51,145 bases of DNA from assembly GCA_021731085.1 (NCBI GenBank), contig JAKFYB010000007.1:96907-148051 (forward strand), read 5' to 3'. The notes beneath the pieces were generated by a model, which worked only from the letters and a program-made list of their open reading frames with translations, ran no database searches and was not told where the DNA came from. This DNA is from Dehalococcoidia bacterium (GTDB lineage: Bacteria; Chloroflexota; Dehalococcoidia; DSTF01; JACRBR01). Shown here one piece after another: positions 14,101 to 20,539 of this stretch. Each line of letters starts with the position of its first letter. The first letter of the stretch is position 1. The translations under genes were made by a program, and so were the position numbers.

Positions 14101-15092
14101 GGTCCGACGGTGGTGCACAGCAACATGACATCATTGCTTCAGCTAATGCGACGTACACGGTGACGTTCGCATTGCCGACGGCGACGCCAACCAACACGCC
14201 GACGGCCACAGCGACGCCAACGCGCACGAACACGCCGACGGCCACACCGACGGCGACACGCACCGCAACGCCCACGCCGACGAACACTGCATCGCCGACG
14301 GCGACAACGACGCCAGTGCCACCGACTAACACGCCGACAGTTACGAATACGCCCACGCCAACACAAACATTCACGCCGACGAACACGCCTACTCAGACTT
14401 CCACGCCAACAGCGACATTGTGCGCGGGCGACAGTGATTGCGACGGCGTGCTGAATACGTCTGACAACTGCGTCTCCGTGGTGAATCCGGATCAGCTCAA
14501 CAGCAATGATGAAATCACGGAGCTGCCGTCACCGTTCCCGTTTACGGACCACACGAACGCGATAGCGCTTGCGTTCGGAGATGCGTGCAACCCTGATCTC
14601 GACAACGACGGCCTCACGGGGGGACAGGAGACGACGGCAGGAACGAATCCTTCGTTGTTCGACACGGATGGCGACCGGCAGCGTGACGGCGCGGAAGTCG
14701 CATGCGGCAGCAACCCGCTTGACGGGCTGAGCCGGGTGACGGGCTCGGACAGCGACGGCGATCAGCTGCCGAACACCTGTGAGGTAATTGCTGGCACCAA
14801 CACGAACGTGAGCGATAGCGACGGCGACGGGCTCCCCGACGGCATCGAGTTTCTCCGCCTGGGCACGAATCCGACGGTCGCGGACACGGATGGAGATGGC
14901 TGTGGGGATGGGAAGGAGACGGCGTCGTTCAACCACGACCTGTCAGTCAATCCCGCCGACCTTGGCATCCTGGCCTCACGCTACAGCGTGATTGGCGATC
15001 CGCTGTACTTCTGGAACTTCGACGTCAACAGGGACGCATCGATAAACTCGCTGGATCTGCTCATCGTCGCGCTGCAATTCGGCACGTGCTGA
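11196..15092 (+). CDS. Giant secreted PA14 / sugar-dehydrogenase-like / PKD / TSP3 / dockerin protein
   Basis: About 1298 residues, secreted. A signal peptide ([17 protein letters not shown]) is followed by two PA14-type carbohydrate-binding domains (roughly 36-175 and 180-305; GxYxFxxxSDDGxR motifs) and a Gdh/YliI/HHIP-like beta-propeller from about 307 to 715 ([47 protein letters not shown]). A PKD domain ([11 protein letters not shown]) and a second Ig-like region come next, then a Thr-Pro linker (about 994-1073). TSP3-like calcium loops ([24 protein letters not shown]) lead to a dockerin-like pair ending LQFGTC. The first EF-hand-like loop is degenerate; the second ([14 protein letters not shown]) is good. 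The start at 11196 puts the signal peptide at the N-terminus. Likely role: extracellular polysaccharide binding or oxidation; whether the propeller binds PQQ is not shown. Confidence 0.9.
14177..14414 (+). repeat. Thr-Pro linker minisatellite
   Basis: Degenerate tandem copies of ACGCCGACG/ACGCCAACG-type units encode about 80 residues of TPT, TNTP and TATPT repeats. Such linkers join folded domains in extracellular Chloroflexota proteins and are often glycosylated. The DNA is prone to length change by slippage in 3-base-multiple units, which would alter linker length without frameshift. Confidence 0.85.
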
Positions 15093-15172
15093 CAATGTTG
15101 CGAAATTCGTAGCCCTGGTGGCCGCGAACAGCACCACCTCCGCGATCTATCCTGAAGGACAGGAGGCGGACG

Positions 15173-15604
15173 ATGGCCAACTCAAACGACGACTTCGACG
15201 GTATCGATATCAGCGGCCCGTGGGGCGGCGTGCGCATCGGGCCAGGCGGAGGGCGGCGCTCGTGGGAGGATATGGACTCCGACGGTGACGCGGAGTACCG
15301 GCGCATCCGCCGATCTGTGCGCAACAAGCTGGACTTCTACCGGCACGCGGCGATGTACGGACTCGTCGTCGGATTTCTGCTGATCATCGACTGGCTCTTC
15401 GGCAATAGCTGGTGGGTGCAGTGGGTGGCCGGCATCTGGGGCATCTTCGTCGTGCTGCAGTTCTTCACGACGTTTATCTCGCCGAACGTCTGGGGCAAGG
15501 ATGTCGAGGAGCGTATGGTGCGCAACGAGCTGTCGAAGCGCCGCGGGCGCGCGATCATTGTCGACGATCCTGACGCTGAGGAACCACCGCCGCCGTCCGT
15601 TTGA
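15173..15604 (+). CDS. 2TM-domain membrane protein
   Basis: A 143-residue protein with a Gly/Asp-rich N-terminal 50 residues, then RRSVRNKLDFYRHAAMYGLVVGFLL followed by a second hydrophobic stretch (VQWVAGIWGIFVVLQFF), matching the two-transmembrane 2TM domain found next to histidine kinases and other bacterial membrane proteins. The C-terminus is charged and Pro-rich. An AGGAGG lies a few bases before the ATG. Function unknown. Confidence 0.75.
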   Translation: MANSNDDFDGIDISGPWGGVRIGPGGGRRSWEDMDSDGDAEYRRIRRSVRNKLDFYRHAAMYGLVVGFLLIIDWLFGNSWWVQWVAGIWGIFVVLQFFTTFISPNVWGKDVEERMVRNELSKRRGRAIIVDDPDAEEPPPPSV

Positions 15605-15648
15605 CGCCTGCTCCCCCATCCTCATACACTCGCCGTGGAGGAAGGTAG

Positions 15649-16524
15649 TTGGCAACCCGATCGTTCGGCGAGACCGGCGTCGGCCGCGACTTGAGCGCAA
15701 TCAGGCCGTTCCTCTGGCTCCCCCTCGTTACTACAGCACTTGCGGTCGCAGCGGCGCTGCTGCTCGGCGTGTTCGCGTCGGACAGCGGTGAGGCGCGGTT
15801 TCGCGCCAATGTAGTTGTTGATGCGCTGCCACCGCTGTTTGGCCCTCCTGTGCTGCCCGGGCCCTTCGACTATGCGGCGCTCGCGACGAGCGATGCGGTT
15901 GTGAATCAGGTCGCGAGCGACACGAACATTCCGGCGGGCGACCTCGCGCCGCGCCTGCGCGCGGAGCCACGCATCAACACGCCGGAGATCGACTTCTTCG
16001 TCACGGGCGACGGCGCGCTGGCCGTCGCGACGGCGTGGGAGCGCGCGTTTGCTGAAGCCGTTGGGCCGGCGACGCCCGTACTCCAGGAGCAACTTGTCCA
16101 GCCCTACCGTGAGCAGCTGGAGCAGGCTCGCATTCAACTCGCGCAGGCGACGCTTGCTGCCAGTGCAGGAGGCCCTGCCGCCGACCAGGCGCTTGCGGCC
16201 GCCGAGCAGAATTACGAGACGGCCTCGCGGCTGGTGCAGTCGTACGACGTTGTGGCGGCGACGATGAGCGCGACATCGTTCACGGTAAAGGCGCCGCACA
16301 CCTACGCGAGCGGGCTCGGATCGACGGCTGCACGGGTGGGCGCGGCGATCGCGATCGGCCTCGTCAGCGGAATCATCGGCGCCTGCGCGCTGGCGTTCGT
16401 GCGGGGACGGCGCGATGACGATGATGATGCGGATCTTGCGCCGCCGTCGATTCGTTCGGCGACCCGCGGCGAGACTCCCGTAACCGCCGGCACGCGAGCG
16501 ATCGGGCCGAGCGGACGCTCGTGA
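15649..16524 (+). CDS. Wzz-like polysaccharide chain-length/co-polymerase protein
   Basis: A 291-residue protein with one N-terminal helix (LWLPLVTTALAVAAALLLGV), a periplasmic-type middle with a coiled-coil region (QLVQPYREQLEQARIQLAQATLA... ), and a second helix near 225-250 (AAIAIGLVSGIIGACALAF) followed by a short Asp/Arg-rich tail. This two-helix hairpin layout is that of Wzz/VpsO co-polymerases without the kinase domain. It starts with TTG preceded by GGAGGAAGG. Its stop overlaps the GTG of the next glycosyltransferase gene, placing it first in an exopolysaccharide operon. Confidence 0.7.
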   Translation: MATRSFGETGVGRDLSAIRPFLWLPLVTTALAVAAALLLGVFASDSGEARFRANVVVDALPPLFGPPVLPGPFDYAALATSDAVVNQVASDTNIPAGDLAPRLRAEPRINTPEIDFFVTGDGALAVATAWERAFAEAVGPATPVLQEQLVQPYREQLEQARIQLAQATLAASAGGPAADQALAAAEQNYETASRLVQSYDVVAATMSATSFTVKAPHTYASGLGSTAARVGAAIAIGLVSGIIGACALAFVRGRRDDDDDADLAPPSIRSATRGETPVTAGTRAIGPSGRS

Positions 16525-17816
16525 GAATCCTGCTCCTTTGCGCGCTCGACGTGTGGTCGCTGGACCAGGGGAAGGGCGCGCCGACGCTGGAGCGCACGCT
16601 GCGCGCGTACGGGGAGGCCGGCCACCACGTCGATGTCGTGATGCCGGACATTGGCGCAAACCACTTCTATCGCCGCAGCGACCGCGATGAAGCGCCGGAA
16701 TCGCGTCCGGCGATTGCGAACGTGACCTTCCACGCGTTCCACATGCCAAGCCTGCGCGACCTTCCGCTGCCGTCGCTTCCCGGCCCGATCCTGGCGATCG
16801 ACCAGAAGGCGCGGTTCGCGGCGGCGTTTCCGTGGTTGGCGGCCAAGGAGGCGGAGCGCCTGCTGCGGTCATCGCCGGAGGCCTACGACGTCATTTATGC
16901 GTACGAAGTGCACGGCGTGCTCGCGGCGAAGCTGTTGCGGCGGCGGGGATTCCGGCTGACGCTCGTGACGCGCTTCCAGGGAACGGTGATGCATCCGGCG
17001 CTGAACGATCGCGTGATGTACTACCGCCGCTACGAAGAGGCGCTGGCGCTGAAGACGCCAGCAGACCTCGTGATCATGACGGACGATGGCACACAAGGCG
17101 ACGAGGTACTCGCGCGGCTGAATCCTGCGGTGCGGACGAAGACGAAATTCTGGCGCAACGGGCTCGACCTCGATCGGCTGCGTGCGCCAACGCCGGAAGA
17201 GCGTGCATCGGCGCGCGCGTCGCTCAACATCCCGGACGGCGCGTTCGTAATGTTGACGGCGTCGCGGCTTGCGGCGTGGAAGCGGGTGGATCGCGCGATA
17301 CGCGCGCTGCCTCGCGTAGCGTCATGGGCGCAGCACTCACTTCTGGTTATCGTCGGCGACGGTGAGGAGCGGGTGAGGCTCGAAGCACTCGCGCGTGAGT
17401 TGGGCGTGGGCGCGAATGTGCGGTTTGTGGGCGCGGTGCCTCAGGCGGACGTGATGTCGTACATGCATGCGGCCGATGTTTTCCTGGCGATCGCCGACCT
17501 GTCGAACGTCGGGAACCCACTGCTGGAGGCGATGGCATGCGGGATGTGCGTCGTCGCGGTGGATGCGGGCGACACGCGCGACCTTATTCAAGACGGTGTG
17601 GCGGGCAGGCTGGTCGACTCGTCGAACCGGTCGGGGATCGCGCGGCCGCTGGAGGAGCGCATGGCGGATCTGCTGGTGACGCTGGCGGCCGATGCGCCGC
17701 AGCGGGAACGGCTGGCGGCGGGAGCGGCAGCATACGCGCGAGAGCGGTTCTGGACATGGGATCAACGGATGGCGGCGGAGCTGGCGGCCGTGCAAGCAAT
17801 CGCGCGCTCGGGCTAG
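16521..17816 (+). CDS. Family 4 glycosyltransferase
   Basis: A 431-residue GT-B enzyme. The N-terminal domain begins MRILLLCALDVWSLDQGKGAPTL, and the C-terminal donor-binding domain carries LTASRLAAWKRVDRAIRAL, VIVGDGEERVRLEALA, VRFVGAVPQADV and the E-x7-E-like end NPLLEAMACGMCVVAVDAG. It starts with GTG in a GTGA overlap with the Wzz-like gene. Probable cytoplasmic enzyme of the exopolysaccharide operon; donor and acceptor are unknown. Confidence 0.88.
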   Translation: MRILLLCALDVWSLDQGKGAPTLERTLRAYGEAGHHVDVVMPDIGANHFYRRSDRDEAPESRPAIANVTFHAFHMPSLRDLPLPSLPGPILAIDQKARFAAAFPWLAAKEAERLLRSSPEAYDVIYAYEVHGVLAAKLLRRRGFRLTLVTRFQGTVMHPALNDRVMYYRRYEEALALKTPADLVIMTDDGTQGDEVLARLNPAVRTKTKFWRNGLDLDRLRAPTPEERASARASLNIPDGAFVMLTASRLAAWKRVDRAIRALPRVASWAQHSLLVIVGDGEERVRLEALARELGVGANVRFVGAVPQADVMSYMHAADVFLAIADLSNVGNPLLEAMACGMCVVAVDAGDTRDLIQDGVAGRLVDSSNRSGIARPLEERMADLLVTLAADAPQRERLAAGAAAYARERFWTWDQRMAAELAAVQAIARSG

Positions 17817-17864
17817 GAACCAGATCTCACACATTCCGACAGGTGAGGCGCACAGCAATGGTGA

Positions 17865-17880
17865 TGTTTCACGTGAAACA
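17865..17880. promoter_or_regulatory. parS centromere site
   Basis: TGTTTCACGTGAAACA is a perfect 16-bp palindrome identical to the bacterial parS consensus bound by ParB. It lies in the 174-bp gap between two exopolysaccharide genes. No other copy was found in the window. It implies a chromosomal position relatively near the replication origin, or recruitment of ParB at this locus. Confidence 0.9.
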
Positions 17881-17990
17881 TGCATCGCATCCGCCGCTGA
17901 TTCTATGTGGCGATATTCCGGCGCAGATTCGCCGAGTGCCATGCGAGTGTTGCATTTTGTCGACAGCGCGCGGGGATACACTCCCGACTG

Positions 17991-19370
17991 ATGATTGATG
18001 CTGAGGCCCTCCCCGAACCGCAGCAGCGCGGATCGTTTCTCGGTCATGTGAATGTTGTCGTCCTGACGTACCTCGTCGATGGCGCTCTGGCGTTCGCGAC
18101 GGGGATCCTGCTCGCGCGGGCGCTGGGGCCGGATGGGCGCGGGGCGTACGGGCTGTTCGTGCTGTCGGCGGCGTTCGGGCAGATCCTGCTCGGGTTCGGC
18201 GTCGGCAACGCGGCCATCTACTACATCAACAAGCGCGAGCTGACGGTGCGCGACGTGATCGGAGCGGCGCACAATGTGACGCTGTTCGCGACGCTTGCGA
18301 CCGCGCTGCTCGTCGCCGCGATCGTACCGTGGGTCGAGGATGATGCGCTGGGCGTGGGTGTCTCGCCGTGGATGCTGATCGCGGCGGTGCCCGCGCTGTT
18401 GTACTGGAATTTGATGCGATTCGTGCTGCAGGCGGAGAGCCGCTTCGTCGATCTGGGAGTCGCGACGGTGTCGCAGCAGGCGCTTCTGATTGGCGCGATC
18501 ATCGTGCTCGTCGTCGCAGGCGACCCGACGCCAACGCAGGCGGCATGGTGCCTGATAGGGGCGACGTCGGTTGCGGGCGTGTTCTCTCTAACGCGCGTGG
18601 GGCTCCGGCATGTGGACGTGGGGCTGATCGTACGGCCGCGGTTCGACACGCTGCGCAAGCTGGCGGGGTTCGGCGTGCAGGGCGAGGCCGGCAACGTCCT
18701 GCAGCTGCTGAACTACCGGCTCGACCAATTTCTCGTGCGGTACTTCGTCGGGCTTGCAGGCGTGGGCATCTACGCCGTCGGCGCGTCGATGACGGAGGTG
18801 ATCTTCGTGCTGGCGAACGCGGTGGCGCTGGTACTGCTGCCGCGGCTGACAGCGGACGAAGACGAGGCGCACTGGATGGCGCCCCTCGCGACGCGCAACA
18901 CAATCCTGATCGCTGCAGTGGCGGCGCTCGGTCTCGCGGTGATTGCGCCGGTACTGGTGCCGCTGGCATTCGGCGAGGAGTACAAGGACAGCGTGCAGGC
19001 GTTGTGGCTGCTCCTGCCGGGCACGGTGGTGCTCGCTGGATCGAAAGTGCTGACGAGCTACATCTTCAGCCGCGGGCGGCCGCTCGTGAACACGGGGATC
19101 ACTGCGGTGTCGCTGGTGGTGACGGTGACCCTGGACTTGATCCTGATTCCGATCTTTGATGTCAACGGCGCTGCGGCCGCGTCGTCGCTCGCGTACTTCG
19201 CGCACTTTGGCGCAGCACTGTTCGCCTACAGCGTGATCTCAGGTCGGTCGCCGCTGGTAGCGCTCATCCCGGGGCGCGAGGACGTGCGACTGTATCGCGA
19301 TGCGTGGACGACGGTCACAACGAAGCTGCTGCGTCGTCCACCGGCCCAGCCTGAGCCACCGGCGCCATGA
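17991..19370 (+). CDS. Polysaccharide flippase (Wzx/MATE-like)
   Basis: A 459-residue inner-membrane protein with about 12-14 helices, of the MOP superfamily that flips lipid-linked sugar repeat units. Typical features are LTYLVDGALAFATGILLARALGPDGRGAYGLF at the N-terminus and NYRLDQFLVRYFVGLAGVGIYAVG in the middle, followed by LLPGTVVLAGSKVLTSYIFSRGRP. The ATG at 17991 gives the usual short N-terminus; the frame is open from 17907, through sequence with no helix character. The stop overlaps the ATG of the next glycosyltransferase gene (ATGA). Confidence 0.9.
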   Translation: MIDAEALPEPQQRGSFLGHVNVVVLTYLVDGALAFATGILLARALGPDGRGAYGLFVLSAAFGQILLGFGVGNAAIYYINKRELTVRDVIGAAHNVTLFATLATALLVAAIVPWVEDDALGVGVSPWMLIAAVPALLYWNLMRFVLQAESRFVDLGVATVSQQALLIGAIIVLVVAGDPTPTQAAWCLIGATSVAGVFSLTRVGLRHVDVGLIVRPRFDTLRKLAGFGVQGEAGNVLQLLNYRLDQFLVRYFVGLAGVGIYAVGASMTEVIFVLANAVALVLLPRLTADEDEAHWMAPLATRNTILIAAVAALGLAVIAPVLVPLAFGEEYKDSVQALWLLLPGTVVLAGSKVLTSYIFSRGRPLVNTGITAVSLVVTVTLDLILIPIFDVNGAAAASSLAYFAHFGAALFAYSVISGRSPLVALIPGREDVRLYRDAWTTVTTKLLRRPPAQPEPPAP

Positions 19371-20539
19371 ATGTCGAGCGCGTGACCGACGCGCAACGGC
19401 TGCGGATCGCGGTGCTCGGCGATTTCGACGGCGTGCATACGCGATCGTGGCTGCGCTGGTTCATCGCGCGCGGCCATGATGTGCATGCGATCTCGTTCTA
19501 TCCGCCGTCAGCTCCAGTTGATGGCGTGACGCTGCATGTGCTCAAAGAGCGATTCACGAACGGTGACGGTGGAAGTGCAGCAGGCAGCGGATCGAGCCGT
19601 ATTCCACGGAGCCTCGTGCGCCTTGTGCACGCGGCCCGCTACCGGCAGGCGGGACTTCAGCGCGTTTTGCGTGAAATCGCGCCGGATGTGTTTCACGCGC
19701 ACTTCGTCGTCGAGCACGGATTCTACGGTGCGCTGGCAGGCTTCCATCCGTACGTTGTGACGGCGTGGGGTTCGGACGTGCTCGTCGAGCCAGGACGCGA
19801 TCCGATCTCGCGGCAGATCGCGAAGTGGACGCTGGCTCGCGCCGATCTCATCACATCGAACAACAACGTGATGGCGGAGCGCATCGTCGAGCTGGGTGCG
19901 TCGCGTTCAAAGGTCGAGATCGTGACGCTGGGGGCGGATGCGTACTTCGGCGACAGGTGGGAGGAGTCGGCGAACGTCGCCGCGCCGTTCGCGGGTGCGC
20001 CGATCACGATCCTGAGCACGCGGGCGCATGAGCCGCTGTACAACATCGATGCGATCATCGACGCGTTCGCAGTCCTTCACGAGAAGGCGCCGAACACGCA
20101 ACTGGTCGTCGCGCACAGCGGGTCGCTGTCGCCGGCGCTCGAGGACCGAGCACGACCTCTCGGCGACGCGGTGACGTTTACGGGCACGGTCGATGCGGCA
20201 CGGCTGCGCGACTTGATGACGGAAGCGGCGGTGTTCGTGTCGGTTCCGTCGTCGGACGGGACGTCGGTGGCGCTATTGCAGGCGATGTCGGCCGGCGCGT
20301 TTCCGGTCGTGAGCGCCCTCGAGACCGTGCGCGAGTGGATCGTGGATGGCGAGAACGGGCTCACGGTGCCACTCGGCTCGCCTGTGTTGATGGCGGAGGC
20401 GTTGATGAAAGCGGTCTCCGGCGTGGAGTTGCGGCGCACTGCGGCGGTGCGGAATCGGGCCATCGTGCGGGAGCGCGGGACGAACGAGGTGGAGATGGCT
20501 CGGATGGAGACGCTGTATCTTCGGCTCGCGTCGCGCTAG
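19367..20539 (+). CDS. Family 4 glycosyltransferase, second of the operon
   Basis: A 390-residue GT-B enzyme: RIAVLGDFDGVHTRSWLRWF at the N-terminus, YVVTAWGSDVLVEPG (a WGSD motif of GT4 enzymes), ADLITSNNNVMAERIVELG, and the donor-site end FVSVPSSDGTSVALLQAMSAGAFPVVSAL. It overlaps the flippase gene by 4 bp. It is the last gene of the exopolysaccharide operon and is convergent with the Crp-type regulator; the hairpin at 20610-20630 lies between them. Confidence 0.9.
   Translation: MNVERVTDAQRLRIAVLGDFDGVHTRSWLRWFIARGHDVHAISFYPPSAPVDGVTLHVLKERFTNGDGGSAAGSGSSRIPRSLVRLVHAARYRQAGLQRVLREIAPDVFHAHFVVEHGFYGALAGFHPYVVTAWGSDVLVEPGRDPISRQIAKWTLARADLITSNNNVMAERIVELGASRSKVEIVTLGADAYFGDRWEESANVAAPFAGAPITILSTRAHEPLYNIDAIIDAFAVLHEKAPNTQLVVAHSGSLSPALEDRARPLGDAVTFTGTVDAARLRDLMTEAAVFVSVPSSDGTSVALLQAMSAGAFPVVSALETVREWIVDGENGLTVPLGSPVLMAEALMKAVSGVELRRTAAVRNRAIVRERGTNEVEMARMETLYLRLASR

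Follow-up and report, generated by a model that had tools for sequence, protein, structure and literature searches.

Bacterial chromosomes are taught as having a single origin of replication. The ParB-binding site parS, present in one or several copies, usually lies near that origin, and even the 20-23 sites of Streptomyces and Listeria are near one origin (PMC7333895). In Caulobacter, a second parS cluster was tolerated only within ~500 kb (PMC5815017). More than one origin or centromere per chromosome has been described in the fused Vibrio cholerae NSCV strains, where two origins are active on one natural chromosome (PMC6284228), and in the dicentric chromosomes of Agrobacterium (PMC12153318). 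Whether multiple origins can be a normal bacterial state is a question that skew-based proposals raised and left open (Xia 2012, PMC3269012; Gao 2015, PMC4403523); they read several polarity changes as several origins. Human skew N-domains (PMC3320577, PMC4729899) share the sharp upward jump and gradual fall that are described below, a likeness of pattern only. Our search for literature on parS in Chloroflexi, performed with limited terms, found no paper.

The window, the whole stretch of 51,145 nucleotides analysed here, corresponds to C8:96907-148051 of G000, a Dehalococcoidia metagenome-assembled genome (MAG) of 3.58 Mb in 52 contigs (96.6% complete, 0.9% contamination) whose close relatives are Dehalococcoidia or Chloroflexota MAGs. 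The parS set of this genome differs from the systems above in several respects. In contrast to Streptomyces and Listeria, G000 carries parS at 16 places on 14 contigs, and these tend to coincide with origin-like skew steps. The V. cholerae and Agrobacterium chromosomes are fusions of two replicons with differing origin types, whereas one same parS marks the ~16 places in G000; the human N-domains are eukaryotic and without parS. The skew-only proposals had no independent mark, whereas here the steps coincided with parS, occurred in two genera and were examined by an orthologue-flip test. The wider result is a genome-scattered parS set that coincides with origin-like strand switches. The features of the window on which the analysis rested were as follows.

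14600..17880, no strand: upward GC-skew step zone, with skew of -0.012 left of the site and +0.085 right of it; best single change point 14600
16521..17816, plus strand: GT4 glycosyltransferase gene upstream of parS (PF00534, E 7e-32), with orthologues 72-78% identical
17824..17972, minus strand: parS-centred repeat unit, in which parS has TCGCACGCGATGCA on its left and TCACCATTCGCCG on its right, with a GGCACTC piece further out (profile match C8:114730-114878, E 5.5e-16)
17865..17880, no strand: parS site TGTTTCACGTGAAACA, exact match, 1 of 29 exact genome copies
17991..19370 (open frame from 17907), plus strand: polysaccharide flippase gene downstream of parS (PF13440, E 1e-16), starting at ATG 17991 when aligned with relatives
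19367..20539, plus strand: second glycosyltransferase of the operon (PF13477/PF13692)

The site at 17865-17880 is an exact parS and a perfect palindrome, and it was the sole match in the window even when up to three mismatches were allowed, a threshold at which dinucleotide shuffles of the window gave an expectation of 0.09 matches. The initial annotation had called it identical to the ParB-binding consensus. The identification as an exact parS stood, but TGTTTCACGTGAAACA is one of several accepted parS forms and differs at two positions from TGTTCCACGTGGAACA. The annotation's placement of the site in an intergenic gap between the GT4 and flippase genes was correct, as was its exopolysaccharide-operon context, with the two glycosyltransferase genes and the flippase gene all on the plus strand. 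In the relatives L008 and L010, the GT4-flippase order was kept and parS was not found in the same gap. Control of exopolysaccharide gene expression was rejected as the main role, as the same site adjoins unrelated genes elsewhere (MreB, RpsB, TetR and short-chain dehydrogenases) and is missing from the same gap in these two relatives. Misassembly at a repeat was also rejected, given the gene order kept in relatives and the sites of a second genome, G004, which have almost no common flank.

The flank common to the G000 copies was asymmetric, reading (T/C)CGCACGCGATGCA - parS - TCACCATTCGCCG, and a longer unit with GGCACTC was common to approximately ten of them. The copies are dispersed and occur in either orientation. 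A profile search found no copy of the repeat unit without parS in the DNA searched, every copy having the site, and a mobile repeat unrelated to parS was therefore rejected. In G004, which belongs to another genus of the same family, the sites were flanked differently (AAT - parS - TTAGTTCTA), and the G004 sites had almost no flank in common. As the flanks of the two genomes differ, the parS expansions in G000 and G004 were probably separate events.

The suggestion that the site might be one of several dispersed sites was borne out on a larger scale than anticipated: 14 contigs carry a total of 29 exact copies, grouped into 16 loci. The genome also had seven one-mismatch copies, and a TGTTCC variant occurred once. 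With up to three mismatches, parS matched 48 places in G000 and the reversed control pattern matched one; the control had no exact copy in the whole genome. Exact copies fell outside called genes in 26 of 29 cases, though 85% of the DNA is coding. Among the few coding copies, one lay in frame within an NYN-domain gene, where it reads GDVSRETSV (L027:9787-10977). The cluster at C18:321-925 (L023:321-925) adjoins yidC/yidD, the usual origin-side place, while the other loci were among unrelated genes. This cluster is a near-tandem repeat of ~185 bp with three exact parS and the TGTTCC variant, and a similar 181-bp array was present on C30. Contigs C1 and C9 carried two parS loci each. Several small circular replicons were rejected as an explanation, given these two contigs and the lack of terminal overlaps in the ten contigs for which both termini were available.

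Elsewhere in the family, seven members had 1-3 parS each; the exception was G004, with 10 parS on 9 contigs. The ordinary parS of the relatives and of G004 lay by rnpA/yidD/yidC. The parS places of G004 and G000 were mostly non-orthologous, and few genes were common to the surroundings of both sets. In a survey of the phylum, 103 of 251 genomes had parS, most with 1-3 copies, and some families were parS-rich, with the sites either dispersed (f92 and f113) or packed (G454, 24 of 27 on one contig). Three genomes of independent lineages, G479 and G399 in f92 and G356 in f113, had 17-22 parS; for G479 and G356, the places listed included many singletons on different contigs. One genus of f92 carried 5-22 dispersed parS.

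The initial annotation had noted no dnaA or parB in the window, and both were located elsewhere, the single DnaA on C42 and ParB on C29, neither being on C8. A genome without ParB would have spoken against the site, but one chromosomal ParB was encoded by an open reading frame on C29 (TIGR00180, E 4e-52) and had solved Spo0J/ParB relatives. One full-length SMC was encoded on C12. By motif and gene content, the window site is a genuine predicted ParB-loading site. The likeness to chromosomal ParABS systems extended to the same 16-bp site, a same-family ParB, SMC and one yidD/yidC cluster in G000. A further difference was a Soj-type ParA, which was not found in the MAG at 96.6% completeness, perhaps through an assembly gap or a loss. 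The AAA_31 matches of G000 were CpaE-like neighbours of CpaF and one Mrp/ApbC protein, and a ParA-like gene inside the parS cluster on C24 was rejected as ParA, being Mrp/ApbC. In G004, parA and parB adjoin yidC. If the absence of ParA from G000 is not an assembly gap, ParB would mainly serve SMC loading.

GC skew over 5 kb rose from left to right at 16 of 16 parS loci in G000. At 10 kb, the mean step over the 13 testable loci was 0.107, compared to a background of 0.003 (sd 0.061); none of 20,000 random draws reached this mean, and a circular-shift test yielded p 3e-4, the smallest value reachable. In both G000 and G004, the step profile peaked at offset 0 and had vanished by 8 kb. Along the contigs the skew formed a sawtooth, falling slowly and rising sharply at parS, most clearly on C5 and at C9:36 kb. 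Strong upward steps were far more numerous than downward steps, of which hardly any was at parS. Step heights varied among the G000 loci from 0.01 to 0.22, with small values at C19 and C1:9135, and the window's own step was modest (87th-94th percentile), its best change point being 3.3 kb from parS. The upward GC-skew switch is an origin hallmark; taken together, the loci of both genomes showed it, and it was weak at the window's own site.

Left of parS, skew was -0.036 for plus-strand and -0.073 for minus-strand genes, compared to +0.048 and +0.044 to the right, and coding strands were balanced. Transcription was rejected as the cause, since the step was equal for genes of both strands. The step was carried by third codon positions (shift 0.19-0.27), with AT skew opposite in sign, and the strand outgoing from parS was rich in G and T, a bias of the leading-strand type. 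Equality on both gene strands, the third-position signal and the opposite AT skew are marks of replication strand bias. Among the strong upward steps of G000, approximately half were without parS. No parS-like site within 6 kb was found for the steps at C8:56600, C2:104000, C3:96000, C3:119400, C30:27800 and C23:10800, where the best matches had 4-6 mismatches. Steps of this kind may mark start zones that have no parS or that have lost it, or they may be noise.

The hypothesis was drawn from G000, and the G004 loci had already been seen at ±5 kb before the full-contig test. Measured at 5 kb, the 8 loci of G004 had a mean step of 0.107 (p below 5e-5). Contig C22 of this genome showed a clean sawtooth across 280 kb, and 6 of the 7 strong upward steps were at parS, with a gradual fall in between. 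For genes within 20 kb, third-position GC skew was +0.036 when they pointed away from parS versus -0.179 when they pointed toward it in G000 (p 1e-23), and +0.041 versus -0.157 in G004 (p 1e-14). When orthologues lay in opposite directions relative to their nearest parS in the two genomes, third-position skew flipped in accordance with the nearest site. This was so for 30 of 35 pairs within 60 kb (p 1.4e-6) and for 10 of 13 pairs at 40 kb. The skew steps thereby had an independent landmark in parS, and the same genes flipped bias by parS position between genera. Conserved genes (at least 70% identity) were oriented away from parS versus toward it at 31:14.

Two other families supplied three genomes with dispersed parS, and at these sites the mean step was -0.027 at 1.5 kb, in a short-range and small test, compared to +0.046 in G000 and +0.039 in G004 at the same scale. 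Dispersed parS without a step in other families indicated that the link to skew is a property of the lineage and that parS alone is not enough. As an association, the link between parS and skew is solid in two genera.

Our tentative preference, held at slightly under an even chance, is that the lineage replicates from several or alternating start zones, each with parS, the sites having spread by repeat. Replication forks would leave each parS locus and the strand bias would be their record; we infer from forks so recorded that the lineage has several start zones, which could be used together in one cell or alternately among cells. The parS at each zone would allow ParB and SMC to gather and resolve the newly copied DNA there. 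The site would have spread as a parS-centred repeat of ~110-150 bp from the origin-side cluster to ~15 other places. A stronger form is possible, and we hold it as rather doubtful: a chromosome that, during normal growth, starts at ~15 or more zones, every one of which has a parS of its own bound by the same ParB. Both initiation and segregation would then be distributed, and the arrangement would have arisen in two or more genera of a single Dehalococcoidia family. Because skew averages over evolutionary time, it cannot distinguish origins that fire simultaneously from those that alternate or have moved serially.

Serial movement is the foremost alternative. A single origin at a time, often moved through copying or relocation of the surrounding origin-parS region while old parS stayed behind, would leave a skew that averages past fork directions and yields the same sawtooth. 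The unequal step heights, the mostly non-orthologous sites of the two genomes, which indicate fast turnover, and the one repeat unit common to the parS copies are consistent with such a history. However, one genus would need ~15 moves and the other ~8, and each new position would have to persist until a strong third-position step had formed. The neighbouring genes are also unrelated from site to site, and none is an origin gene brought along; we consider this history unlikely. Inversions with breakpoints in parS repeats could also have scattered origin pieces, and each place that received a piece with parS would then show a minus-to-plus junction. The dispersed copies in both orientations and the many gene neighbourhoods that are unlike between G000 and G004 agree with this, yet random inversions would create sharp up and down junctions equally, against the excess of upward steps and the few downward ones at parS. 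The gradual fall of skew between steps and the GT4-flippase order kept across the window's site also argue against rearrangement, which appears quite improbable.

A bias that is not replicative in nature was considered as well. SMC, which is encoded in G000, is loaded by ParB at parS and then travels away (PMC7333895), and its outward traffic combined with selection or repair, such as avoidance of head-on transcription or polar guide motifs, could shape the strands; the tendency of conserved genes to point away from parS fits this scheme. Against it, genes of either strand showed the step equally, third positions showed it most, its G+T pattern was that of a leading strand, and other Chloroflexota with dispersed parS showed no step. 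No single polar motif stood out beyond general G-rich words. SMC is not known to bias mutation, and we regard this scheme as improbable. The step-free dispersed parS of other families would suit the view that these are ordinary extra copies whose coincidence with skew steps is chance; several independent tests in two genomes, including the replicate, make that highly improbable.

If the preferred reading, replication from several start zones, is correct, it bears on why parS does not normally stray far from the origin; this restriction might no longer apply where each parS has its own start zone. The parS loci, among them C5:112 kb, C9:36 kb and C20:51.6 kb in G000 and C22:181 kb in G004, also provide a list of places where a read-depth profile could probe multi-origin replication. 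Searches for further origin elements found no DnaA-box cluster within 3 kb of any parS locus, using E. coli-type boxes; no such cluster was near dnaA either, so this lineage may use another box sequence. The most AT-rich 50 bp near the sites reached 52-66%, with no clear AT-rich unwinding element, and neither initiator genes among the neighbours of the parS loci nor other shared 12-mers near them were found. The strongest skews seen were +0.28 where the parB contig begins on its left (L031:1-12000) and -0.17 along the dnaA contig (L030:1-18045), and the main origin may therefore lie between these two contigs.
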